The position numbers and the translations under genes are program-made. From assembly GCA_030637775.1 (NCBI GenBank), contig DAOWFY010000094.1, positions 1 to 9,600 of the forward strand: DNA of 9,600 nucleotides, in the 5' to 3' direction. How positions within the stretch are numbered: the first letter of the stretch is position 1; each line of letters begins with the position of its first letter. The notes under the pieces are model-generated. The model saw nothing but the letters and a program-made list of their open reading frames with translations. It made no database searches and had not been told where the DNA came from. Shown here in pieces: positions 1 through 9,600 of this stretch. This DNA comes from DAOVGU01 sp030637775 [NCBI: bacterium]. Lineage in GTDB: Bacteria > Ratteibacteria > UBA8468.

Positions 1-1079
1 AAAGGGCCGACCTCTCACTTAACTGGCATCGCATCGAGAAGACTTATGAGGCCGATTCTCCCATTGAGGGGAAGATTGTTCAGATAGTGAAAGGAGGTTT
101 TAAAGTAGATATTGGCGTACTTGCCTTTCTTCCAGGTTCCCAAGCAGATATTAAACCCTTAACCGAACCCAAAGAATTTTTGGGCAAGAACTACCAATTT
201 AAGGTTCTTAAGATTGATCGGTTCAAGAAGAATGTGGTGCTATCCCGCCGCAGTCTCTTGGAGGAAGAGGAGAGAAAAAAACATCTTTCTGCTCTTTTAA
301 AGTTAAAGGAAGGTGAATTGATTAAGGGAAAGGTAAAAAGTATTGTTGACTATGGTGCTTTTGTCGAAATAGATGGTGTTAGCGGATTTCTCCATATTAA
401 TGATATGGGCTGGGGCAGAATTAGCCATCCGTCTCAACTTTTAAGAGTTGGAGAAGAGATTGAAGTTCTTGTTTTAAAGGTTGATCGAGAAAAGGGAGAG
501 GTCTCCTTTGGTCTGAAGCAAAAAACACCCAATCCCTGGGAAAAGATAGAGGAAAAGTATCCCGTAGGTTCCAAAGTAAGAGGGAAGGTTGTTAATATCA
601 CTGAGTATGGCGCTTTTGTTAAGTTAGAAGAGGGGCTGGAAGGACTACTTCATATTTCGGAACTCTCCTGGATTGGCCATATTAAACATCCTTCCGAAAT
701 TATCGCGATGGGTGACGAATTGGAACTTTTGGTCATCGGAATTGAGAAGGAGCATCAGAAAATCTCCTTTTCTCTGAAGAGATTAGAACCGAATCCCTGG
801 GAGAAAATTAAAGAAAAATATCCGCCGGACACAAAGTTTGAGGGAAAGGTGGTCAGCCTCACCGATTATGGAGCCTTTGTCGAGATAGAGAAAGGAATTG
901 ACGGATTGCTCCATATCTCCAACATCTCCTGGGAGAAGATTAAACACCCTTCGGAGATTCTGAAAAAAGGGGAAAAGGTTGATGTAGTTATCCTTTCTGT
1001 AGATCCGGAAAGGAAAAAGATTGCTCTTGGTATGAAGCAACTAAAAGAGAAGCCAGAGGACAAGGAGGATGAAAAATGA
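1..1079 (+). CDS. rpsA: 30S ribosomal protein S1, 3' part (5' end outside window)
   Basis: S1 binds mRNA on the 30S subunit and helps initiation. The first complete codon in frame is at base 3, giving 358 visible residues. The reading frame is open to the window edge, so the internal GTG at 87 is not the start. The visible protein aligns with E. coli S1 domains 2 to 5. Domain 2 carries [16 protein letters not shown] and VVLSRR. Three full S1/OB repeats follow at about 312-521, 570-782 and 831-1043, each with a [DE]YGAFV strand, G(F/L)LHI, a W and HPS. The protein stops after domain 5 with a charged tail (KPEDKEDEK), so the sixth repeat of the E. coli protein is absent, which is common outside Proteobacteria. 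The stop overlaps the next start by 4 nt (ATGA). Identification is by family motifs and is confident; only the N-terminus is unseen. Confidence 0.95.
1062..1068 (+). promoter_or_regulatory. Shine-Dalgarno for the prepilin at 1076
   Basis: AAGGAGG lies inside the last codons of rpsA, 7 nt before the ATG at 1076. It fixes that start and suggests translational coupling of the prepilin to rpsA. Confidence 0.75.
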
Positions 1080-1637
1080 AGAGAAGAAAGGGGTTTACTT
1101 TGATGGAGTTATTGGTGGTAATGGCGATTATGGCGGCTTTGGCCGCTTTACTTCTACCTGTTTTAGGAAGAGCAAGGGAAAAGGGAAGAAGAACCATCTG
1201 TATTGCTAACCTTAAGCAGATTGGGATGGCAATCCATATGTATGCCGAGGATTACTTTGAGAGATTCCCGGGGAATGGAGTGGAAGATACCGGTTCTTCA
1301 GAGATGGGTTTTCTCTTTCCCAGATATATTAATGCCTCTGCTGTCTGGGACTGCCCGGGAGATAAGAAAAATGCCTTCGCCACAATTTCTAATCATATTC
1401 TGAGTAACTCCAGTTATGCTTACGACGATGAGCATTTGGAGAGTGAGGACGTCGATATTAAGTTAGCCCTTAGCGCCGATAGAGGAGTATCAACAACCTT
1501 AACGAAAAAATCGAATCACAGCATTGAGGGGGTTAAATGTTCTCTATGTGGATGGGGCAGCAAGATGGGTTCCGGCTGATGATGAGGGCAATATCAGAAC
1601 CTCTGGTGTCAGCAATAAAGAAAACCTGAAAGATTAA
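1076..1637 (+). pseudogene. Prepilin-like protein with H-X9-DG-type C-terminus, interrupted by a +1 frameshift
   Basis: The N-terminus is a class III signal: short basic leader MKRRKG, then [13 protein letters not shown], cleaved after Gly6 with Glu at mature position 5. The middle ([16 protein letters not shown], then a WDCPGDK segment) matches the DUF1559-like / H-X9-DG pilins common in planctomycete-related bacteria. The uninterrupted frame ends at 1579 with an atypical Cys-rich tail ([14 protein letters not shown]). Dropping one A from the AAA at 1535-1537 restores the family's ending: [18 protein letters not shown], followed by [13 protein letters not shown] and a stop at 1635-1637. Ten rather than nine residues lie between His and DG. 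The gene is therefore either a recent pseudogene or carries a sequencing or assembly indel. It sits between rpsA and gspG and overlaps the rpsA stop by 4 nt. The restored product would be about 186 aa, probably a pilin-like surface or periplasmic protein; its exact role is unknown. Confidence 0.8.
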
Positions 1638-1661
1638 TATAATTGCATAGGAATTTCCTTT

Positions 1662-1711
1662 CCCCCTCTTCTCATTCCTCCCCCTCAAGGGGGGGAGGAG
1701 ATAGGTGGGGG
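1662..1711 (+). repeat. G/C-rich palindromic interspersed repeat (REP/MITE-like)
   Basis: An 8-bp perfect stem (CCTCCCCC at 1677-1684, GGGGGAGG at 1691-1698) surrounds a 6-nt loop. An outer CCCCC (1662-1666) and GGGGG (1707-1711) can pair around it. Read on the minus strand it encodes HPHLSPPPLEGE, a peptide known as the spurious translation of a widespread bacterial intergenic palindrome. No T-run follows, so it is not a convincing terminator. It lies immediately before gspG, and the only purine-rich ribosome-binding candidate for gspG (AGGTGG, 1703-1708) is inside it. Other copies cannot be seen in this window, so the repeat call rests on recognised similarity. Confidence 0.6.
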
Positions 1712-1720
1712 TGTAATTTA

Positions 1721-2155
1721 ATGAAAAGAGGTTTTATGCTTGTTGAGATTGTGGTGGTAATGGCCATTATTGCGGGAATTGCTGCTCTTTTTTTACCTAC
1801 CCTAAGGAAGGCACGAAGACGCGCTCTCATTGGTAAGGCCCAGGTAGCAATCACCTCTTTAGAGACTGCTTTATCGATGTATGAGAGCGATTTTAGTGAT
1901 TATCCTCCTAACAGTGGAGAAGGTTGTAAAAATTTAGTTTCTCTTCTTCAGGGTCCGATAGCAGGTCACTCTTGGCATGGTCCCTATATGAGGTTTAAGG
2001 AGAAGGAGCTAAAGGATGGAAATTTTATTGATCCCTGGGAAAATCCCTACCGATATGAATATCCCCAAACCAAACATCCTAATGTGGCCTATCTTATTTC
2101 CTCTAATGGTCCTGATATGATTTTTGGCAGCGAAGATGATATTGTGAACTGGTGA
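1721..2155 (+). CDS. gspG: Type II secretion major pseudopilin GspG
   Basis: GspG is the main subunit of the periplasmic pseudopilus that pushes substrates through the secretin. The start is ATG 1721 (144 aa); the frame is open further upstream but only through the palindromic repeat, so the longer version is rejected. The leader MKRG is followed by FMLVEIVVVMAII: prepilin peptidase cleavage after Gly4, N-methyl Phe, Glu at mature position 5. The rest follows the GspG fold: ITSLETALSMYESDFSDYPP, then GPYM, an IDPWENPYRYEYP segment and the C-terminal SSNGPDMIFGSEDDIVNW, the calcium-binding terminus typical of GspG. The length is normal for the family. The Shine-Dalgarno is weak (GGTGG about 12 nt upstream, within the repeat). 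It is the first intact gene of the G-H-I-J-K series. A type IV pilus-like or pseudopilus system other than classical type II secretion is possible. Confidence 0.88.
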   Translation: MKRGFMLVEIVVVMAIIAGIAALFLPTLRKARRRALIGKAQVAITSLETALSMYESDFSDYPPNSGEGCKNLVSLLQGPIAGHSWHGPYMRFKEKELKDGNFIDPWENPYRYEYPQTKHPNVAYLISSNGPDMIFGSEDDIVNW

Positions 2156-2222
2156 GGAGGCTCGGAAGTTCCCTTGAGTCAATGCTCAGTTGTTTCGCAA
2201 GTAAACCACATTAAGAGGTGAC

Positions 2223-2263
2223 TGGAATAGCGAGACTTGTCTCGCGCCAGCACTGCTACTCCA
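2223..2263 (+). repeat. Compound hairpin in the gspG-gspH spacer (REP-like)
   Basis: TGGAATAG (2223-2230) pairs with CTACTCCA (2256-2263) with one mismatch. Inside it, CGAGAC (2231-2236) pairs perfectly with GTCTCG (2239-2244), and the remaining CGCCAGCACTG can form a small second stem. This two-hairpin-on-a-stem shape resembles REP-type or structured RNA elements. It has no downstream T-run and so is unlikely to be an intrinsic terminator. It sits in the 2156-2378 spacer, in which I see no protein-coding stretch. Other small palindromes there are GCGG/CCGC around 2276-2287 and GTGATCAC at 2319-2326, the latter inside AATCAT (2308-2313) and ATGATT (2329-2334). Confidence 0.45.
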
Positions 2264-2342
2264 AATAAAAATGGTGCGGCATAACCGCCAACTCGCTTCC
2301 AAACCCCAATCATCTCTTGTGATCACTTATGATTCCCCAATT

Positions 2343-2372
2343 TTGCCAGGGGGAACTGACTCGCCTTAGTAT
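2343..2372 (+). promoter_or_regulatory. Possible sigma70-type promoter before gspH
   Basis: TTGCCA at 2343-2348 (5 of 6 to TTGACA) and TAGTAT at 2367-2372 (4 of 6 to TATAAT) are 18 bp apart. The -10-like box ends 6 nt before the gspH ATG. gspH has no visible Shine-Dalgarno, so transcription starting here would give a leaderless or nearly leaderless mRNA. The evidence is sequence similarity only, and such matches occur by chance in AT-rich DNA. Confidence 0.25.
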
Positions 2373-2378
2373 ACACTA

Positions 2379-2816
2379 ATGAGAAGAAATTGCTATGCAG
2401 GCTTTACGCTTCTGGAAATATTGGTTGTTTTGATTTTAATTGGGCTTTTTAGTTTGATTAGTATTCCCGCCTTTTTTAATAAGATTAAAAGCTCTAAATT
2501 GAAAGCTACGGGTGAAGGCATTGCTCAAAGTCTAAAGTTAGCGAAAAGCTATGCCATCACCAAACGGGAGATTTGTCGGGTCGATTTTGATTTAATCAAT
2601 GGAGCCTGGGGAATCTATAATGGAGAATTGAGAGACAAATGGTTGAAACTCCCTAACAACATCAGGATAAAGGAGGTTACTGAGGGTTTTGATCCCGCAA
2701 TTTTTAGAGCCGATGGGACGATAAAGCAAGCAGGCCACCTTGTTCTTGAGAATATCCGGGATCTTTCAACAAAGAAGGTTATTGTTAATAGTTTGGGAAG
2801 GGTGAGAATTGAATAG
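2379..2816 (+). CDS. gspH: Type II secretion minor pseudopilin GspH (GspH/FimT-like)
   Basis: This 145-aa minor pseudopilin is predicted to sit near the pseudopilus tip. The leader MRRNCYAG precedes FTLLEILVVLILIGLFSLI: cleavage after Gly8, Glu at mature position 5, one hydrophobic helix. The SLKLAKSYAITKREICRVDFD segment (about residues 46-66) and the following GAWGIYNGELRDKW match the GspH/FimT pattern of a helix, basic turn and first beta strands. The late IFRADGTIKQAGHL and the C-terminal VIVNSLGRVRI are typical strands of that domain. The start is forced: an in-frame TAG lies at 2367-2369. No Shine-Dalgarno is visible. It is separated from gspG by 223 bp but overlaps gspI by 8 nt. Assignment to H rather than another FimT-like pilin rests on motif pattern and gene order. 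Confidence 0.82.
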   Translation: MRRNCYAGFTLLEILVVLILIGLFSLISIPAFFNKIKSSKLKATGEGIAQSLKLAKSYAITKREICRVDFDLINGAWGIYNGELRDKWLKLPNNIRIKEVTEGFDPAIFRADGTIKQAGHLVLENIRDLSTKKVIVNSLGRVRIE

Positions 2817-3171
2817 GGCAGGATTTACATTGATTAGTGTGGTTTTTGCACTTGCCATATTGACCATAGGGATATTAAGCATTGTCTGGCTCTTTCCTCT
2901 GGGACACAAAGCAGTTAGCAGAAGCAAGGCGATGACCATTGCTGCTCTGATTGCCGAAAGGGAATTGAATAGAATCCGGGGCCTCTATAGCAGTTTTGAT
3001 TCTCCCGATCCTCCGGAAGAAATGTCCGGTCGCGACCCCGACTTTCCAAGATTTTTTTGGAAAGCAATAATCTCGGGAAAGAAAATCTATGCCGTTGATT
3101 TAGAAGTCTCCTGGGAAGAGCAAAGAAAAAAAGAGCATGAATTCTTCACAACAGAATTTACAAAACATTAA
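2809..3171 (+). CDS. gspI: Type II secretion minor pseudopilin GspI (PilV-like), Glu5 replaced by Ser
   Basis: This is a 120-aa minor pseudopilin of the tip complex that GspI forms with J and K. The start is TTG 2809, inside the end of gspH (8-nt overlap), preceded by GGGAAGGGTGAG. After leader MNRAG comes FTLISVVFALAILTIGIL. The cleavage site and helix are normal, but mature residue 5, almost always Glu and needed for assembly and methylation in most pilins, is Ser. The AALIAERELNRIRG segment is the GspI/PilV signature region, and the C-terminus (VSWEEQ then EFFTTEFTKH) matches the usual final strands. The size is typical. It overlaps gspJ by 35 nt in another frame. The type IV pilus protein PilV is the main alternative, but the order H-I-J-K supports GspI. 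Confidence 0.78.
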   Translation: MNRAGFTLISVVFALAILTIGILSIVWLFPLGHKAVSRSKAMTIAALIAERELNRIRGLYSSFDSPDPPEEMSGRDPDFPRFFWKAIISGKKIYAVDLEVSWEEQRKKEHEFFTTEFTKH

Positions 3172-3775
3172 AGGGTTTACCATCTTGGAATTTCTCATTG
3201 CCGCTTTCATTCTCACCATCGTTGTCGGCTCGATCTTACTTCTTTTTAAGGAAAGTTCCTCTTCCTTTTCTCACGGCAAAAGCAAAGTGGGAATCTACGA
3301 GGCGGGAAGGGAATCGCTTAATTTCTTGATGAGTCGGTTGCGTACCGCTTTGGTGAACGATTGGGAGAATGACCGAATTAACTTCATTGGGGAAGGGAGA
3401 AAGGTAAAATTCATCTGCCCCTTTTCTACCCGTAAGGATTCTTCCGATATTTGTAAACTTGTCTTTTATTTGGAGGAGGAGGAGTTGAAGGTCTGGTTAG
3501 AAAGGATGGGAAAAGAGGGGAAAGATTATTCCTTTCCCGATTCCTTTCCCGGAAGTCAGGGCTTAATCACCAATGTAAAAGAGATGACTTTTGAATACTA
3601 TGATGGAAGTCTCTGGAGAGATTGTTGGGATTCCAGGAAAGGGGAAAGACAGGATAGTAAATTACCGAAAGCGGTACGCATTAGAATTAAGATTTCTGCT
3701 TCTCGGGGAACTGAGGGGAAGGAACCGATAGAGAGAAGTTTCTCTGCGATCACCTATCTTGAGAATAGTGGATAA
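3137..3775 (+). CDS. gspJ: Type II secretion minor pseudopilin GspJ
   Basis: This 212-aa minor pseudopilin is expected to join I and K at the pseudopilus tip. The leader is MNSSQQNLQNIKG, followed by FTILEFLIAAFILTIVVGSI, with cleavage after Gly13 and Glu at mature position 5. Downstream are ESLNFLMSRLRTAL (helix), a KLVFYLEEEEL strand, ITNVKEMTFEYYDGSLWRDCW and a LPKAVRIRIKISA strand, the usual order of the GspJ domain, ending at SFSAITYLENSG. The start codon ATG 3137 lies within the last part of gspI and is preceded by a purine-rich AAGAAAAAAAGAG. The 35-nt overlap with gspI and 17-nt overlap with gspK suggest translational coupling and stoichiometric synthesis. Confidence 0.83.
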   Translation: MNSSQQNLQNIKGFTILEFLIAAFILTIVVGSILLLFKESSSSFSHGKSKVGIYEAGRESLNFLMSRLRTALVNDWENDRINFIGEGRKVKFICPFSTRKDSSDICKLVFYLEEEELKVWLERMGKEGKDYSFPDSFPGSQGLITNVKEMTFEYYDGSLWRDCWDSRKGERQDSKLPKAVRIRIKISASRGTEGKEPIERSFSAITYLENSG

Positions 3776-6038
3776 TAAGGGGATTGCCATGATCATTGTC
3801 ATTGGACTCTTAAGCCTGCTTTTGGTAATGGGACTTTCCTTTCTACTTTTAATGAGGTTACAGGAGAAAGGTGCCGCCAACTACCTTTTCTCAGTGAGAG
3901 CGAAGAATATAGCAAGATTGGGGATTGAAAAGGCAATTGTCCAATTAAAGACGGCTCAAAAGGCTTATGATGTGGAGACAGAGGCCTGGCACTCAGACTT
4001 TGCTGGAGACGAGGTAGATTTAGATGGGGATGGTGAGCCTGATTCTAAATGGATAAATCTTTTTAAGAAAGGAAAGTTGATTGGCAGGTATAGTGTACTG
4101 GTAAAGGATGAGGAGGGTAAACTCAATATCAATGAGGCGGGTAATCTAAGCAAAGGTTCCCATACCAAGGAGCAGGGAGTTGATGAGGGCTGGAAGCCCT
4201 CGGAGATTGTGTTAACGGCTCTACCCGGAATTAGTGAGGGACTCGCCAAAAGCATAGTTAAATTTCGCTATGGGAAGGATAAAAAACCGGGTAAGAAAAA
4301 ATTTGATGATAATAAAAACAATCCCCGATTGACTGAGGATGGAATCGATAATGATGGTGATTGGGTCCCTGCCAATGACCGGATGCTCAAAGGCCGACGT
4401 AATGGGAGGCCAAATCCCGGGGAGGAAGACTGTGATGAGGATGACGAAGGAATAGATGAGCCGGAGGAATTCTGCTCGAGATCTCCTTTTGGTGATGATC
4501 AACCCTTTGTAACGATTGAGGATTTGAAGAGGGTTAAGGGAATAGGAGAGAAAAAATTTAAAGCTGTCAAAAATGTAATCACCACCTATTCCTATGATAA
4601 AAATATCAACAGCGAGGCTGAATTGAGGATGAATATCAATACCGAGCCAATAGAGAGAATAAAGTATGCTTTGAGAAAGGGTGGCATCACTGACCCGGAT
4701 ATCTGTAACCAGATTGCGGTAAATATTATTGATTATAGAGATAAGAACAATTTTCCCATATCCAACTTTGACCCAAATACATGGAAAACTTACTACGGAA
4801 TTGAGGAAACCCCTTATCTCAATGAAATAGAGGCCTCACCAGAACCTCTGGATGTTCCTCCAGGACTCGAGGAGATTATCGCCAAGATATTTGATGGCGG
4901 TGAATATATTGAACTTTATAATCCCTATCCCTTCGATATTCCTATCGGTGGATGGAGAATCACAACCTCCTCTACCGGCACCTCTTTTATTCAGACTATC
5001 TATTCTCTTTTAAATATGTTTCTTATTCCGATTGTAATTCCCGAAGGAACAGTTATCCCGGCAAATGGCTACTATACCATTGGAGATAATATAGCGATAG
5101 CGCTTATTAAGGCTGGAAAGCGGGTTATACCTGTCCCCTGGCCGATTAAGCCTACACCATCCGGATGCGATCAGTACCATCCAATAATCCTTTTTGATTT
5201 AGGTGGGAATCTAAGGTTGGAAGACTCCTCTTCTCATGCGATTGAAGATACTTATTATGGGCTAGATTTTTGCACTTCGATATCTCGAGAGAAAAACGAT
5301 CCCCGAGTAAGAAGATTCTACCTTGGCCCTGGTTCAGGGACTCCTGGAAAACCAAATTTTTTCTTTTTCCCTCCAATTGGAAAAGAGGTAAGTCTATTTA
5401 ACTGGCCGAGTAGTTTTGCGGTAAAGAATTATCCCTTTGCCGCGGTTGGGGAGTTGGGTGATGTCCATCGAGGAACTCAATGGAAGACAATTAACTTTTG
5501 GAGGGGAGAGGATATTGGTCTCTGTGATCAACTTACTATCGCTGAACCTGTCAGAGAGCCGCTCAAGGGAAGGATTAACATTAATACCGCCTCTGTACCT
5601 GTTTTAATGGGATTACCCGGAATTGAGAAGGAGTTAGCAGAAAAGATTTGCAAGGCCAGACCTTTCAAAACGATTGGAGAAATTTTTGGAGATTATTCTG
5701 AAGAGGAAGAAGATGAGGAAGATGAAGAGGAAGAGAAAGATCCTAAGAAAATTCTCAATAAAGTAATGATTGCTAAAGGGAAAGATTCCCTTGACAATGA
5801 TGAAGATGGATTTGAGGATGAGGATGATGAGGCCGAAGAGATTTTCAGAAGAATTTCCAGTCTTATTACCGTGAGGTCTAACCTCTTTTCTATTATCTCT
5901 CTTGCTCAATCCATCAGGGATAAAAATGGCAATGGTAAAGTTGATGAAGGGGAAATTCTTGCCGAGGAGAAGATCAAAGTAATCTACGATCGGGGTTCCT
6001 TGCCGAGAAAAATACGCTTTTATAAGGAGGTGCAATGA
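3759..6038 (+). CDS. gspK: GspK-like tip pseudopilin, enlarged, with lamin-tail-like domain and Ca-binding-like loops
   Basis: GspK caps the pseudopilus. TTG 3759 is used here (759 aa); GTG 3768 is an alternative start. Leader MRIVDNKG precedes IAMIIVIGLLSLLLVM, without Glu at mature position 5, as is usual for GspK. Helix-hairpin-helix/NINTA-like blocks occur at residues 121-170 (LNINEAG, LPGISEGLAKSI), 251-275 (VKGIGEKKFKAV), 289-328 (MNINTEP) and 604-635 (ININTAS, LPGIEKELAEKI). Acidic loops occur at 87-98 (DLDGDGEPD), 193-235, 677-691 and 721-732 (DKNGNGKVDEGE, a full EF-hand-type pattern). Residues about 353-533 resemble a lamin-tail domain: YLNEI, YIELYNPYPFDIPIGGW, IPANGYYTIG, LRLED and the closing GTPGKPN. 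A Glu/Asp run covers 647-659. Family GspK proteins are usually around 300-350 aa, so the size is unusual. The stop overlaps the next ATG by 4 nt. Confidence 0.83.
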   Translation: MRIVDNKGIAMIIVIGLLSLLLVMGLSFLLLMRLQEKGAANYLFSVRAKNIARLGIEKAIVQLKTAQKAYDVETEAWHSDFAGDEVDLDGDGEPDSKWINLFKKGKLIGRYSVLVKDEEGKLNINEAGNLSKGSHTKEQGVDEGWKPSEIVLTALPGISEGLAKSIVKFRYGKDKKPGKKKFDDNKNNPRLTEDGIDNDGDWVPANDRMLKGRRNGRPNPGEEDCDEDDEGIDEPEEFCSRSPFGDDQPFVTIEDLKRVKGIGEKKFKAVKNVITTYSYDKNINSEAELRMNINTEPIERIKYALRKGGITDPDICNQIAVNIIDYRDKNNFPISNFDPNTWKTYYGIEETPYLNEIEASPEPLDVPPGLEEIIAKIFDGGEYIELYNPYPFDIPIGGWRITTSSTGTSFIQTIYSLLNMFLIPIVIPEGTVIPANGYYTIGDNIAIALIKAGKRVIPVPWPIKPTPSGCDQYHPIILFDLGGNLRLEDSSSHAIEDTYYGLDFCTSISREKNDPRVRRFYLGPGSGTPGKPNFFFFPPIGKEVSLFNWPSSFAVKNYPFAAVGELGDVHRGTQWKTINFWRGEDIGLCDQLTIAEPVREPLKGRININTASVPVLMGLPGIEKELAEKICKARPFKTIGEIFGDYSEEEEDEEDEEEEKDPKKILNKVMIAKGKDSLDNDEDGFEDEDDEAEEIFRRISSLITVRSNLFSIISLAQSIRDKNGNGKVDEGEILAEEKIKVIYDRGSLPRKIRFYKEVQ

Positions 6039-6643
6039 AACTTTCAGTACGATCAGCCCAGTGGTTATTGTTGTCTTTATTGGCGGTTATCATTATTTCT
6101 CTTCTCTGTCTTCTGCACACACTTAGAGTGAAGAAAAGTCGGCAAACCGTTCTTGCCGAGGTGAACGGAGTAAGCATCACTGTCTCGGATTTTAATCGGC
6201 TTTGTTCTTCCAGTCCTGACTACTACAGGGATTTTATCAGGGAAAACAAGATGGCTTTTTTGGAGGATTTAATCAGTCGGGAACTTCTCTTTCAGGAGGC
6301 AAAGAGGAAGAAAATTGACAGATTAGAAAAGGTAAGACAGAAATTGCAGGATAAAGAGAAGGATATTTTAGTAGAGGCATTTACCAAAGAGGAGATTTTG
6401 AAAAGGATAGAGGCTTCGATGGGTGAGGTAAGATCCTATTATGAAGAACATAAAGAGGAATTTGTACTTCCCGGAACTATTCCTCCTCAAAAGGAAAGTT
6501 TTGATGATGTGAGGGAAAGGGTAAGGGGCCTTTTGGCAAAGAGTAAAGAGGTAGAAGCGTTTGGCAACTATCTGAAGAAGTTAAGGAAAAAAGCAAAGAT
6601 CAGGATCAATGAGGAACTACTCCAGAGCCTCCAGTTGAAATGA
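6035..6643 (+). CDS. SurA/PpiC-type chaperone-like protein lacking the parvulin domain
   Basis: This 202-aa membrane-anchored or exported protein has a hydrophobic segment at residues 10-28 with a basic residue before it. AEVNGVSITVSDFNRL (41-56) and FLEDLISRELLFQEAKRKKI (75-94) are the conserved start and core helix of SurA N-terminal domains. EVRSYYEEHKEEFVLPG (131-147) normally leads straight into a parvulin prolyl-isomerase domain. Here it jumps to TIPPQKESFDDVRERVRGLL, the sequence expected just after that domain, so some 80-100 residues are absent in frame. The product is probably a periplasmic chaperone without isomerase activity (inference). AAGGAGG at 6024-6030 lies 4 nt before the ATG, which overlaps the gspK stop. 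The next gene is a related paralogue, overlapped by 4 nt. Confidence 0.72.
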   Translation: MKLSVRSAQWLLLSLLAVIIISLLCLLHTLRVKKSRQTVLAEVNGVSITVSDFNRLCSSSPDYYRDFIRENKMAFLEDLISRELLFQEAKRKKIDRLEKVRQKLQDKEKDILVEAFTKEEILKRIEASMGEVRSYYEEHKEEFVLPGTIPPQKESFDDVRERVRGLLAKSKEVEAFGNYLKKLRKKAKIRINEELLQSLQLK

Positions 6644-7467
6644 AACTTTTTTACTTTATGTCTTTTGCATTTTACATCCTTTGTGCTGCCGCTATTTCCT
6701 CTACAGACACTTTTAGAGTTGTGGCTGTCGTCAATGATGAAGCAATTACTGAAGGTGAGGTTGAGGAATTGGTGGATCTTAAAGGAAATTTTTCCTCTGC
6801 TCTTAACTATCTTATCGAGGAGGCTCTTCTTTTCCAGGAGGCAAAGAAGAAGCAAATAGAGAAAGAAAGAGTGGATGAAGAATTCAATAGAGTTAAAGAA
6901 AGGTTTTCTTCCGAGGAGGGTTTTTATCAGCAGTTGCAGAAAGAAGGTTTAACTGCACATCAAGTAAAGAAGAACCTGGAAAAGCAACTTTTGATTCAAA
7001 GGCTTGTTAGGGAGGAGGTGCTTGAGAAAATTTCTGTCACTCCTTATGAAATCGAGGAAAGATTATCTCAGAGGAATTTTCCGAAAAAAGTCTCTTATCG
7101 GTTAAGTGAAATTTTTCGCAAGGAAAAAAAGGAGATTAAAGAGATTTTAGGGAGGATAAAAAAGGGACAACTGAAATTTGAGACTCTCTCTACCGACCTC
7201 GGCTATTTTCAAAGGGAAGAGATGGCTTTAGAGTTCCAGACCGTTTTATTCACATTGAAGATTGGCGAGATAAGTAAACCGATAGAGATGGAGGATGGCT
7301 ATCACCTCATCTCCATCACCGAGAAAAGGGAGGAAGAAAGAAGTCCCGAAGAGTTCAGGAAAGCGATCAGGGAAGAACTATTCCAGAAGAAATTCGGTCA
7401 GAAATACAAAGAATTTATTGTTGAATTAAAGAAGAACGCCCATATTGAGATAAAAAATAATGAATAA
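6640..7467 (+). CDS. surA: SurA-like periplasmic chaperone / peptidyl-prolyl isomerase
   Basis: This 275-aa exported protein has a probable signal peptide (MKLFYFMSFAFYILCAAA), then VVAVVNDEAITEGEVEELV (27-45), the hallmark start of mature SurA. The N-terminal helical region covers LNYLIEEALLFQEAKKKQIE and reaches about 145. A parvulin-like segment follows at about 151-228: VSYRLSEIF, then DLGYFQREEM, LKIGEISKPIEMEDGYHLISI. It is shorter than usual, and the first active-site His of parvulins (usual S-H-I-L) is replaced by Glu in LSEIF, while the late His of YHLI remains, so isomerase activity is doubtful. SurA helps outer-membrane proteins cross the periplasm. Its position before pdxA-ksgA matches the conserved surA-pdxA-ksgA neighbourhood, which supports the name. 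It overlaps the previous paralogue by 4 nt. A Cys at 15 is not in a good lipobox. Confidence 0.78.
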   Translation: MKLFYFMSFAFYILCAAAISSTDTFRVVAVVNDEAITEGEVEELVDLKGNFSSALNYLIEEALLFQEAKKKQIEKERVDEEFNRVKERFSSEEGFYQQLQKEGLTAHQVKKNLEKQLLIQRLVREEVLEKISVTPYEIEERLSQRNFPKKVSYRLSEIFRKEKKEIKEILGRIKKGQLKFETLSTDLGYFQREEMALEFQTVLFTLKIGEISKPIEMEDGYHLISITEKREEERSPEEFRKAIREELFQKKFGQKYKEFIVELKKNAHIEIKNNE

Positions 7468-7490
7468 AGTAAAGGGATCAGGTCTCCACA

Positions 7491-7564
7491 GTTGCTACAA
7501 GATTAACCTGAAAGACTAATTACGCATATTCCTACTAAAGTCAGTGTAATCAGTAAGTAGCGGA
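7491..7564 (+). repeat. ~75-bp repeat, type A, copy 1
   Basis: It starts GTTGCTACAAG and includes GCATATTCCTACTAAAG (7524-7540), ending near TAGCGGAA. The first 51 bases match the copy at 9454 at 46 positions (counted by eye). It lies between surA and pdxA and faces the inverted type B copy at 7594-7651, so the two cores can pair at 16 of 17 positions. No ORF is encoded. Confidence 0.8.
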
Positions 7565-7593
7565 ATTTGACAAACTTGCGACACCGCACTCTC

Positions 7594-7651
7594 TGCTATC
7601 TTTAGTAGCAATATGCGGGAGGATTAACCTCTTGATAATTCTCACAGCAAA
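7594..7651 (-). repeat. ~75-bp repeat, type B, copy 1 (inverted)
   Basis: Read on the minus strand it starts TTTGCTGTGAGAATTATC and contains GCATATTGCTACTAAAG (plus-strand 7600-7616), then GATAG. It matches the forward copy at 9528 at roughly 50 of 60 positions with one gap, and shares the GCATATT.CTACTAAAG core with type A. The repeat boundary falls only 2 nt before the pdxA ATG, so it forms the whole immediate leader of pdxA, which has no Shine-Dalgarno there (nearest GGGAGG at 7617-7622, over 30 nt upstream). Confidence 0.78.
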
Positions 7652-7653
7652 TT

Positions 7654-8685
7654 ATGAATAAGCCGATTATCGGGATTACGATGGGGGATCCCGCGGGAAT
7701 TGGACCCGAGGTGATTCTCAAAGCACTCGCAGAGGCGAGCATCAGAAAAAGCATCGCACCTCTCCTGATTGGTGAGGATTTCATCTTTGAGAGGGTAAAG
7801 AAGATTGTTGGTTTCCCTTTCCACTTTCATCCCATCAACAAAATAGAAGAGGCAATATTTAAAGAAGGGCAAATTGATATCCTTAATTTAGGAGAGATGA
7901 GAGAAAATAATTTTGTCGTCGGAAAGGTAAGCAGAGTCTGTGGAAAAGCAGCAATTGCTTATGTGAAAAAGGCCTTCTTTTTAGCCAAAAATAAAAGAAT
8001 TGGTGCTCTCGTCACCGCTCCCATCAATAAGGAGGCGGTCAGCCTATCTAATTTCCCCTATCCGGGTCATACAGAATTTTTAGCCGCTTTAACTAAAAGA
8101 AAAAGGGTGGGGATGGTGTTGGCGGCAAAAGAGTTAAAGGTCCTTTTAGTTACTACCCATTTAGCTCTTCGGGATATCTCTGCCGCACTTACTGAGGAGA
8201 AGATTCTGGAAAAGATTAAATTGGGTTACCATTTTTTAAAGGATGATCTAAAACTAAAAAATCCTCGTATTGGCCTCTGTGGTTTAAATCCACATAATGG
8301 GGAGGCAGGCATATTTGGCGATGAGGAGGAAAGGGTAATTAAGCCGGCAATTGCTGCTGCCAGAAGAGCCGGCATCAACTGTATTGGCCCGGTTCCCTCC
8401 GATATAATCTTTTACCAGGCAACAAAACAGAAAAAATATGACCTGGTGATAGCGATGTACCATGATCAGGGACTCATTCCCTTAAAAACCCTTTACTTCG
8501 AGGAAGCGGTGAATATTACCATTGGTTTGCCGATCATCCGCACCTCACCCGATCACGGGACCGCTTTTGATATTGCCTATCAGGGAAAAGCAGATTCTAC
8601 GAGTATGAAGGAGGCTATAAGATATGCGGCAAGATTGGTCTCTGCTAAAGGAAACAAAAGGTCTCCTCAAGCAATATCGGTTTAG
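7654..8685 (+). CDS. pdxA: 4-hydroxythreonine-4-phosphate dehydrogenase
   Basis: PdxA oxidises 4-phosphohydroxy-L-threonine with NAD(P); the product decarboxylates to 3-amino-2-oxopropyl phosphate, which PdxJ condenses into pyridoxine phosphate. It acts in the cytosol as a homodimer with a bound divalent metal. The 343-aa protein (E. coli 329) begins MNKPIIGITMGDPAGIGPEV, the family signature. The three metal-ligand His are present: His139 in GHTEF, His214 in NPHNGE and His270 in MYHDQG. RTSPDHGTA at 297-305 is the conserved late motif, and TAPINKEAV at 121-129 is also typical. ATG 7654 is the only sensible start because an in-frame TAA lies at 7636. No Shine-Dalgarno is visible. Its C-terminal 62 nt overlap ksgA. 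PdxA2-type dehydrogenases for sugar acids are related, but the surA/ksgA neighbours favour true PdxA. Confidence 0.95.
   Translation: MNKPIIGITMGDPAGIGPEVILKALAEASIRKSIAPLLIGEDFIFERVKKIVGFPFHFHPINKIEEAIFKEGQIDILNLGEMRENNFVVGKVSRVCGKAAIAYVKKAFFLAKNKRIGALVTAPINKEAVSLSNFPYPGHTEFLAALTKRKRVGMVLAAKELKVLLVTTHLALRDISAALTEEKILEKIKLGYHFLKDDLKLKNPRIGLCGLNPHNGEAGIFGDEEERVIKPAIAAARRAGINCIGPVPSDIIFYQATKQKKYDLVIAMYHDQGLIPLKTLYFEEAVNITIGLPIIRTSPDHGTAFDIAYQGKADSTSMKEAIRYAARLVSAKGNKRSPQAISV
8608..8614 (+). promoter_or_regulatory. Shine-Dalgarno for ksgA inside pdxA
   Basis: AAGGAGG in the pdxA coding region ends 9 nt before ATG 8624. It supports that start for ksgA and therefore a real 62-nt gene overlap. Confidence 0.75.
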
Positions 8686-9469
8686 GCCAAAAAAGAGGTT
8701 GGGCCAGCATTTCCTTATTAATTCATCTGCAGTTGAGAAGATTTTAACTACAGCTAATTTGAAGAAGGAGGATATAGTTCTTGAGATTGGCACCGGTCTT
8801 GGCCTGCTTACTGAAGAATTAGCAAAGAGAGTAAAAAAGGTAATTGGGTTTGAGGTTGATGAGAGGCTTTGCTCCATTTCACAGAAGGTTTTGGCCGATT
8901 TTCCGAATGTTGAAATTAAGAGGGAGGATATTTTAGAGGTCTCTCCAACCGATTTTCATTCCTTAGGAAAGTTTAAGGTAATTGGGAATCTTCCCTATTA
9001 CATTACCACACCAATTATATTTTCTCTTTTGTCCTGGGGCAAAAGTTTGATGTTGGCAATTCTTACCGTTCAGAAGGAAGTGGCAGAAAGGCTTATATCT
9101 CCCCCGGGTAGAAAAGAGTATGGGATTCTCTCCATTGGAGCTCAATTCTACAGCCAAGTGGAAAAACTTGCTGATTTTAAGAAGGAGTCCTTCTTTCCAG
9201 CCCCGGAGGTTGACTCCTCATTGATAAGAATAAAGATGCGAGAAAACCCCCCGGTTTTGGTAAAGGATGAAAAGAATTTCTTTAATCTGGTAAAAGTAAG
9301 TTTTGGTCAACGGCGTAAACAGCTGGTTAATGTTCTGTCCAAAGGCTTAAACCTCAAGAAAGAGATTATCTCTCACAAACTTTCACTTATAGGAATTGAC
9401 CCTAAACGAAGAGCAGAGACCCTTTCCCTGGAGGAGTTTGCTAAATTGAGCAATTTGCTACAAGCTTAA
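8624..9469 (+). CDS. ksgA: 16S rRNA (adenine1518-N6/adenine1519-N6)-dimethyltransferase
   Basis: KsgA (RsmA) transfers four methyls from S-adenosylmethionine to two adjacent adenines in the 3' hairpin of 16S rRNA and acts as a late 30S assembly checkpoint. At 281 aa, its length is usual. RPKKRLGQHFL (21-31) is the family N-terminal motif. VLEIGTGLGLLTEEL (52-66) is the SAM-binding motif I, with the following acidic Glu77 in FEVDE and Asp102 in REDIL. GNLPYYITTPI (121-131) is catalytic motif IV. FFPAPEVDSSLIRI and FGQRRKQLVNVL are the conserved late blocks. ATG 8624 is supported by a strong Shine-Dalgarno and gives the usual leader helix LLKETKGLLKQY. The last codons and stop (LLQA, TAA at 9467-9469) lie within the type A repeat starting at 9454, so the C-terminal end appears to be supplied by the repeat. 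Confidence 0.95.
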   Translation: MRQDWSLLKETKGLLKQYRFRPKKRLGQHFLINSSAVEKILTTANLKKEDIVLEIGTGLGLLTEELAKRVKKVIGFEVDERLCSISQKVLADFPNVEIKREDILEVSPTDFHSLGKFKVIGNLPYYITTPIIFSLLSWGKSLMLAILTVQKEVAERLISPPGRKEYGILSIGAQFYSQVEKLADFKKESFFPAPEVDSSLIRIKMRENPPVLVKDEKNFFNLVKVSFGQRRKQLVNVLSKGLNLKKEIISHKLSLIGIDPKRRAETLSLEEFAKLSNLLQA

Positions 9470-9527
9470 CCTGGGAGAGTAATTACGCATATTCCTACTA
9501 AAGTGAACATATAGTATGGTAGCGGAA
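9454..9527 (+). repeat. ~75-bp repeat, type A, copy 2 (overlaps ksgA stop)
   Basis: It starts TTTGCTACAAGC, contains GCATATTCCTACTAAAG at 9487-9503 (identical to copy 1 over these 17 bases) and ends with TAGCGGAA at 9520-9527. It is followed without a gap by type B in the same orientation. The first 16 bases are also the last coding bases and stop of ksgA. Confidence 0.82.
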
Positions 9528-9600
9528 GTTGCTGTGAGAGTTATCAAAGAGGTTAACCTTTTCGCATATTGCCACTAAAGATAGTATAATTAGATTTAAG
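9528..9600 (+). repeat. ~75-bp repeat, type B, copy 2 (reaches window edge)
   Basis: It starts GTTGCTGTGAGAGTTATC and contains GCATATTGCCACTAAAG at 9564-9580, 77 bp after the corresponding core of the type A copy before it. It then runs GATAGTATAAT, which holds a perfect TATAAT (9585-9590) but no clear -35. Whether the series continues beyond base 9600 cannot be seen. Confidence 0.75.

Follow-up and report, generated by a model that had tools for sequence, protein, structure and literature searches.

What are the short repeats on both sides of the pdxA and ksgA genes in a 9,600-nucleotide contig of a Candidatus Ratteibacteria-type metagenome-assembled genome (MAG), and how have they come to lie there? 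The contig, G000:C114, is in its entirety the window of this analysis; the genome, G000, comprises 1.4 Mb and is 83.5% complete. A first-pass annotation, made from the letters alone, described four copies of two types, an inverted pair (A1 and B1) upstream of pdxA and a tandem pair (A2 and B2) downstream of ksgA. All four are present, and the description is correct. We consider it fairly likely that each repeat is a copy of a short, non-autonomous mobile element, and that this element probably travels as folded single-stranded DNA with the help of a Y1 (HUH) transposase supplied in trans. The mobility of the unit is well supported, by its copy number, exact empty sites, nested and tandem copies, and spread within one family of bacteria, and this bears out one of the options named in the first-pass annotation. 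As for the enzyme, the bulged hairpins, the lack of target duplication and the landing at hairpin tips fit the chemistry of a Y1 enzyme best, and from this we infer that such an enzyme moves the unit.

Copies in the host genome and its relatives

The core CGCATATTSCTACTAAAG (18 bases, at most two mismatches) has 45 matches in the 1.4 Mb genome, compared with none for the reversed control pattern, and blastn with the stretch 7485–7660 finds 58 places; hence the repeats are not due to chance. A covariance model, R1, built from 38 own-genome units, also yields 58 matches. The absence of further copies, which the first-pass annotation named as grounds for refutation, is clearly contradicted by dozens of them in this genome. 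The listing of the units contains 40 units and 18 sites whose boundaries the search expressions missed; several of the latter are full units (e.g. C17, C54, C104, C140), and one C140 site is false.

R1 was then applied to other genomes of the class. Out of 35 genomes only four have matches at E≤0.001, all from one family: G000 itself, G001 from the same genus, and G002 and G003 from the same family, with 57, 54, 1 and 39 matches, respectively (58, 63, 1 and 46 at E≤0.1, in a search that scored at most 150 candidates per genome). In the 31 class genomes of other families there are none at E≤0.001. With one mismatch allowed, the core gives single matches in two of 27 class genomes of other families, the reversed control giving one match in a third. 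In a broader genome collection the exact core occurs in 28 stretches, eleven from DAOVGU, nine from PFWI and eight from other organisms (Vibrio, Clostridia and others). We reject the foreign single matches as true units and ascribe them to chance: the eight foreign stretches, a viral contig and the two one-mismatch class loci score at most 19.6 bits with R1 (best E 0.12), whereas the listed units score at least 36 bits. The phage and plasmid collections contain no unit match at E 1e-5, and the viral contigs have one core match, without the remainder of the unit.

These counts also settle the suggestion of a local duplication or a binding-site array confined to pdxA–ksgA. Clustering within the window speaks for it, but the 45 genome-wide core matches and the 110 model matches in the three relatives refute it, and its probability is practically nil.

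Two modelled hairpins with exchangeable 5' parts

The unit is mostly 74–79 nucleotides (nt) long, and in our model it consists of a pair of short, imperfect hairpins, [KTTGC..GCATA][TTNC..GNAA]. Its consensus, [K TTRC ... GYATA][TTNC TACT RAAG ... AGTRNC GNAA] followed by TT, comes from an alignment (A1, not to be confused with unit A1) of 38 of the 40 listed units, a composite and a unit that holds a foreign palindrome being left out. In the 5' hairpin TTRC pairs with GYA, while in the 3' hairpin ATTNC pairs with GNAAT and TACT with AGTR, with a two-base bulge on the 3' side. At least three exchangeable 5' hairpins (A, B and C) are combined with the common 3' hairpin; of 135 units, at least 12 are of type C, TTGGGAGTGT...ACTCTCC. 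Family D, whose members are longer (about 110 nt), has the form ATTGTGTCG...CGACACAATGGCG...GTATCGCAA/TT (here and below the slash marks the insertion point), shares its 3' end with the units, and nests with them and within itself; it has 6, 14, 0 and 2 matches in G000, G001, G002 and G003. Hence the A and B types of the first-pass annotation stand, its single shared core gives way to two modelled hairpins, and type C and family D are added. A foreign palindrome, CCCCTGATTWAATCAGGGG, lies inside hairpin 1 of several type A and B units (Table 1).

Covariation provides the evidence for this structure. The TTNC/GNAA position covaries through all four Watson–Crick pairs: in the 38 units the variable pair 53–87 is GC in 21, AU in 7, CG in 7, UA in one and something else in two. 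The 5' hairpin pair 5–47 is GC in 30, AU in 7 and other in one. In the own genome, 22 cells are changed on both sides, the shuffled mean being 4.7, and none of 500 shuffles reaches this number. Among the matches of the relatives (99 matches, 87 of them distinct, some from overlapping loci, aligned to a structure-leaning model), seven of twelve pairs have both-side changes, against a shuffled mean of 3.0, again with none of 500 shuffles reaching it. An outer stem joining the 5' and 3' ends was considered and rejected: 92.1% of its cells are paired, but 91 of 500 shuffles reach that; the variable position of such pairing is unpaired in 12 of the 38 units.

Arm covariation and intergenic placement (see below) could also be expected of a structured RNA or a cis-regulatory element under selection at gene ends, another option of the first-pass annotation, which had named compensatory changes as the sign of an RNA. 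Such changes were sought and found in the arms. However, Rfam has no family above its gathering score in 7400–9600 (with Rfam 15 at a lax threshold there are four matches, all below that score and none over a unit), the copies are nested, tandem or borne by repetitive extragenic palindromic (REP) sequences, and absence from orthologous sites weakens the RNA reading. Moreover, the neighbouring genes of the 42 G000 units occur in all orientations (14 ++, 12 --, 5 -+, 2 +-, and 9 with one neighbour only), and A1 and A2 fold like their shuffles; the lack of a fixed orientation to genes together with the weak single-unit folds argues against an RNA gene or a cis-regulator, which we regard as quite improbable.

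Insertion points, targets and the candidate enzyme

Returning to the mobile element, the unit lies between any base, mostly A, and TT, with no duplication of the target. The base at position -1 is A in 35 of 42 rows in G000, 40 of 54 in G001, 34 of 38 in G003 and none of one in G002, and the right flank begins with TT in 36, 51, 37 and one of them, respectively; a few of these rows are truncated or forced fits (e.g. L216–L218, L222). The empty-site test covered 12 joined sites out of 19 unclassified ones; seven were searched, and three gave exact junctions. At C73, GATATA[unit]TTTACTC corresponds to GATATATTTACTC (GATATA/TTTACTC) in G001. At C149, ATATAA[unit]TTTGTC corresponds to ATATAATTTATC (ATATAA/TTTATC) in G001, and the site is also empty in G003 (ATATAA/TCTTTC). 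At C31, ATCA[unit]TTTTGATATAA corresponds to GTCATTTTGATATAA (GTCA/TTTTGATATAA) in G002. Further, the C24 site is empty but its right flank has diverged, the C117 and C69 sites are rearranged in relatives, and C85 aligns across its junction but yields no exact one. Two paralogous empty sites, GGGTCGGATTTATCCGACCC and GGGCTTGATTTATCAAGCCC, have the same cut as the occupied copies GGGTCGGA[unit]TTTATCCGACCC and GGGCTTGA[unit]TTTATCAAGCCC, GGGTCGGATTTATCCGACCC being the empty REP of the first of these.

Judged from the junction letters, the lack of target duplication is unambiguous for copies starting with G, unless the G changed later, and ambiguous for those starting with T. A miniature inverted-repeat transposable element (MITE) of the DDE type is rejected, as no duplication is seen at the exact empty sites and the inverted part of the outer ends comprises only some 4 nt (TTGC/GCAA). 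A CRISPR array is rejected as well: the units are dispersed, single or tandem, and the tandem ones abut without spacers, in agreement with the earlier remark that the spacing is not CRISPR-like.

Where do the units land? The flank statistics rest on 42, 28 and 23 units in G000, G001 and G003, compared to 58, 63 and 46 model matches. The units avoid genes: their midpoints fall within open reading frames (ORFs; at least 110 aa, called by a simple script) in 3 of 42, 2 of 12 and 1 of 12 cases in the same three genomes, while the fractions for random points are 0.81, 0.79 and 0.75. Some are nested at the junction of hairpins 1 and 2 of another unit (C12, C119, C117 and C30 in G000; L167 and L169 in G003; none of the 28 in G001), others adjoin a unit at its 3' end (C6, C57, C114, C157), and still others in the arms or the centre of a MITE whose arms match an insertion sequence (IS) with a 312-aa Y1 transposase (C46, C131, C12, C157 and the window). 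Units are also over-represented at palindrome apices (stem score at least 14), as compared with the intergenic A/TT sites of the same loci: 7 of 42 units against 33 of 894 sites in G000 (p 0.0014), 5 of 28 against 36 of 682 in G001 (p 0.018), and 9 of 23 against 32 of 587 in G003 (p 5e-6). Outside all host classes remain 19 of 42, 18 of 28 and 9 of 23 units.

Many host palindromes are REP-like. GTAG occurs within 17 bases to the left of 32 of 135 units; in two of the 32 it is the 3' end of another unit, and most of the others resemble REPs, their stems being of more than ten kinds. CTAC stands on the right of four units, in no case forming a REP by eye. In G003, near-identical B units lie within a GGACGCAGA...ACGCAGAT repeat at L133, L139, L142, L144 and L147, and have apparently been copied along with it.

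The proximity to REPs raises the possibility that the units are themselves an atypical REP family, copied by the RAYT/TnpAREP proteins of these genomes. The REP/BIME/REPIN elements with their RAYT (GTAG) resemble the unit: both are short, intergenic, palindromic, present in many copies, non-autonomous and probably dependent on a Y1 enzyme for their movement. GTAG palindromes host units in G000, G001 and G003, and RAYT-like Y1 genes of about 150–170 aa, with GTAG palindromes beside or inside them, are present in G003 (C94) and G001 (C244, C122). The 3' end of the unit is often GTAGCGNAA. According to PMC8266576, TnpAREP binds folded single-stranded REPs, uses GTAG and needs a bulge in E. coli. 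On the other hand, the unit consists of two tandem modelled hairpins rather than one, about 75 nt in total, with TTNC/GNAA stems; all 38 aligned units start with KTTGC or KTTAC and none has GTAG 5' of the hairpin, so that membership in the GTAG REPs is rejected. REPs serve as the targets, the units being inserted into the loops of GTAG REPs, and the Y1 search in G000 (a genome 83.5% complete, as said above) gave two genes only, both of the long terminal inverted repeat (TIR) type. Hence this origin is unlikely.

Equally unlikely, in our estimate, is that the element is moved by a transposase of another kind, e.g. an IS110-type RNA-guided recombinase targeting palindromes. An IS110-family gene with a long leader (L090:2080–3617, domain at C64:2507) lies in G000 about 400 bases past what looks by eye like the broken-off 3' end of an inverted unit. 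REP palindromes are the targets of several IS families, including IS3 and IS110, as stated in PMC1525189. But IS110 is found in one of the four unit-carrying genomes, its copy seems, by eye, to be inserted into a unit and not bounded by unit ends (the contig stops inside the element), and no common core dinucleotide is seen at both junctions. The unit as an IS110-type element in its own right is rejected, since a length of mostly 74–79 nt leaves no room for a gene.

We prefer a Y1 enzyme acting in trans. In this scheme the unit would move as folded single-stranded DNA: a Y1/HUH-type transposase would bind the imperfect hairpins (a short stem, the 2-nt bulge, the conserved TACTRAAG), cut on the left behind ...A and at the right end behind GNAA, and the excised piece would be joined to TT-rich single-stranded DNA, for instance in hairpin loops. 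The Y1_Tnp search covered the four unit-carrying genomes and found eight genes, 2, 4, 1 and 1 in G000, G001, G002 and G003. Units lie inside Y1 insertion sequences at C119 and at G001:C157.

Several observations weigh against this explanation. None of the eight Y1 genes, in four incomplete genomes, is framed by two unit hairpins, although the one at G001:C173 is at a contig end. The typed ones (all but the G002 gene and the cut-off G001:C173) belong to TIR-bearing insertion sequences (312–314 aa) or look like transposases of the REP type (about 150–170 aa). No copy carries a transposase of the two families searched, Y1_Tnp and IS110, between two hairpins. The strand shows no bias with respect to GC skew, which is positive for 24 of 42, 7 of 12 and 5 of 12 units. 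One of the seven apex sites in G000 (C24) depends on G–T pairs, and some composites of host and unit, such as the GGACGCAGA copies in G003, have been copied whole, inflating the host counts, so that insertion events are fewer than rows.

The structural evidence is uneven as well. In the own genome both-side changes affect two of twelve pairs (shuffled mean 1.8, reached by 415 of 500 shuffles) and there are 8 further pair types against a mean of 8.8 (482 of 500), so that it is the number of changed cells, and not that of pairs, which exceeds the shuffles. Outer 5'–3' pairing is also in excess, with five cells against 1.5 (0 of 500). Single-unit DNA folding gives A1 and A2 no advantage over their shuffles (z 0.43 and 0.61) and B1 only some (z -1.78; 8 of 200 as good), and the minimum-energy folds of single units differ from the two hairpins; since these folds are weak and of another shape, the two-hairpin structure rests on covariation. 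Finally, arm-to-arm copying in a DNA palindrome can be another source of complementary arm changes.

The units of the window and their relation to known elements

The features of the window are given in Table 1. The boundaries of A1 were set by the end rule of the unit derived from occupied sites and by the empty sites. Including flanks, A1 and B1 correspond to R1 matches at 7490–7568 (81.2 bits) and 7573–7652 (79.9 bits); A2 is the match at 9453–9530 (77.9 bits), and B2 a partial match (48.9 bits), incomplete through the assembly because the window is a whole contig. A1 and A2 share 92% identity over 50 nt, and B1 and B2 are 87% complementary over 38 nt.

Table 1. Features of the window, with further units and family D members elsewhere
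Feature	Location	Strand	Description
SurA-like gene	6640-7467		upstream of A1
Left copy of ATGAATAA	7460..7467	+	comparison with G002
MITE arm, outer part	7474..7490	+	GGGATCAGGTCTCCACA of the Y1-transposase MITE; A1 lies between GGGATCAGGTCTCCACA and TTTGACAAAC
Unit A1	7491..7565	+	type-A 5' hairpin and common 3' hairpin, 75 nt
MITE arm, inner part	7566..7575	+	TTTGACAAAC, separates A1 from B1
Unit B1	7576..7651	-	76 nt; type-B 5' hairpin with common 3' hairpin, in inverse orientation to A1
Right copy of ATGAATAA	7654..7661	+	start of pdxA; comparison with G002
pdxA	7654-8685		downstream of B1
ksgA ORF	8624-9469		upstream of B2, stop inside A2
Unit A2	9454..9527	+	inserted at AGCAA/TTT, 3' end of ksgA
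Unit B2	9528..9600	+	head-to-tail after A2, ended by the contig end
Family D examples	G000:C67:1871-1979; G000:C73, C78, C3; G001:C175, C2; G003:C207
CCCCTGATTWAATCAGGGG-bearing units	G000:C12:23189, C30:17397; G001:C121, C257, C113, C95, C167

Upstream of pdxA, the MITE arm matches, with a few differences, the terminal repeats of the Y1 insertion sequence at C119, and the same arm borders units at C12, C46, C131 and C157. A1 is inserted at CCACA/TTTGACAAAC of this arm, and the inverted B1 abuts GTTTGTCAAA of it, exactly like the B copy at G000:C12:23189, where GTTTGTCAAATGTTGAGACCTGACCCC adjoins the B unit. Hence B1 and A1 would have entered the arm by two independent insertions, and a flip by recombination, suggested in the first-pass annotation, is not needed to explain their inversion. 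The stretch 7510–7650 does fold well (z -4.41), as that annotation foresaw and as is expected of an inverted repeat. Downstream, A2 would have entered the end of ksgA; B2 lies directly behind it. The final codons of ksgA and its stop come from A2 (TTG CTA CAA GCT TAA), and in G002 the end of ksgA, the target of A2, is empty: AGCAATTTTTTATAA (AGCAA/TTTTTTATAA). The same tandem arrangement is seen at C6, C57 and C157.

The ksgA gene of G001 (L228, about 3300) ends with AGCAAGTTGCTGTGA and has at the A2 target GTTGCTGTGA, identical to the ten bases that open a B unit, which may be either a remnant or a chance match. The A1/B1 composite is flanked on both sides, within 7460–7661, by the 8-bp ATGAATAA, both genes being intact; in G002 surA and pdxA overlap at a single copy of it. 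We cannot explain this duplication by the insertion mode of the unit. The surA/pdxA junction of G001 contains a different repeat, likewise with repeated bases on both sides. The gene names surA, pdxA and ksgA come from the first-pass annotation and our reading of the ORFs. Far upstream, at 1076–6038, several short ORFs in a row have N-termini that by eye resemble those of pilins (GFTLxE-like motifs), and a large ORF follows; this is probably a type II secretion/pseudopilin cluster.

The unit is best described as a REP- or PATE-like non-autonomous element, a variant that matches no described family that we found. PATEs are non-autonomous IS200/IS605 derivatives with end hairpins, strand-defined ends, no duplication and insertion behind a short motif; IS200/IS605 elements themselves insert without target duplication. 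The unit shares the strand-defined ends, the lack of duplication and the insertion behind a short motif, and a hairpin near each end is modelled for it, but no cognate TnpA was found, its target motif is only A/TT, its hairpins are weak, and it prefers palindrome apices. REP loops are also known as insertion points for IS1397. According to PMC1525189, IS1397, ISKpn1, IS621 and ISPpu9/10 are insertion sequences that target REPs; they resemble the unit in having REP palindromes as targets, but they code for a transposase, whereas the unit is non-coding, about 75 nt long, and lands in palindromes of many stem sequences. PMC3733652 reports REPs nested inside palindromes: GTAG-15 of A. variabilis, GTAG-23 of T. 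roseum and CGTC-1 of H. neapolitanus. These too are palindromic repeats nested within palindromes; however, there the REP is the guest, and here it is the host of a self-nesting two-hairpin unit. Searches of an open-access library turned up neither an account of a comparable family with two hairpins and self-nesting nor a title on repeats in Ratteibacteria.

More speculatively, and with considerable doubt, all the types may belong to one superfamily of hairpin elements that lack genes: a constant 3' hairpin (...CGNAA/TT) would be joined to one of several interchangeable 5' hairpins (A, B, C or the longer D), and a single enzyme acting in trans would insert the elements, precisely and with no target duplication, at the single-stranded tips of hairpins, their own included. 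Such elements would amount to a modular single-strand parasite of other palindromic repeats.

The host lineage is a candidate phylum with little literature in the open-access library searched, and the units reshape the ends of its genes, as illustrated by the stop codon of ksgA in the window. The spread of REP-like palindromes is still poorly understood, as noted in PMC8266576. With its orthologous empty sites, precisely defined boundaries, numerous target palindromes and matching changes in the arms, this family permits a direct test of the idea that small palindromes travel as folded single strands and land in hairpin tips.

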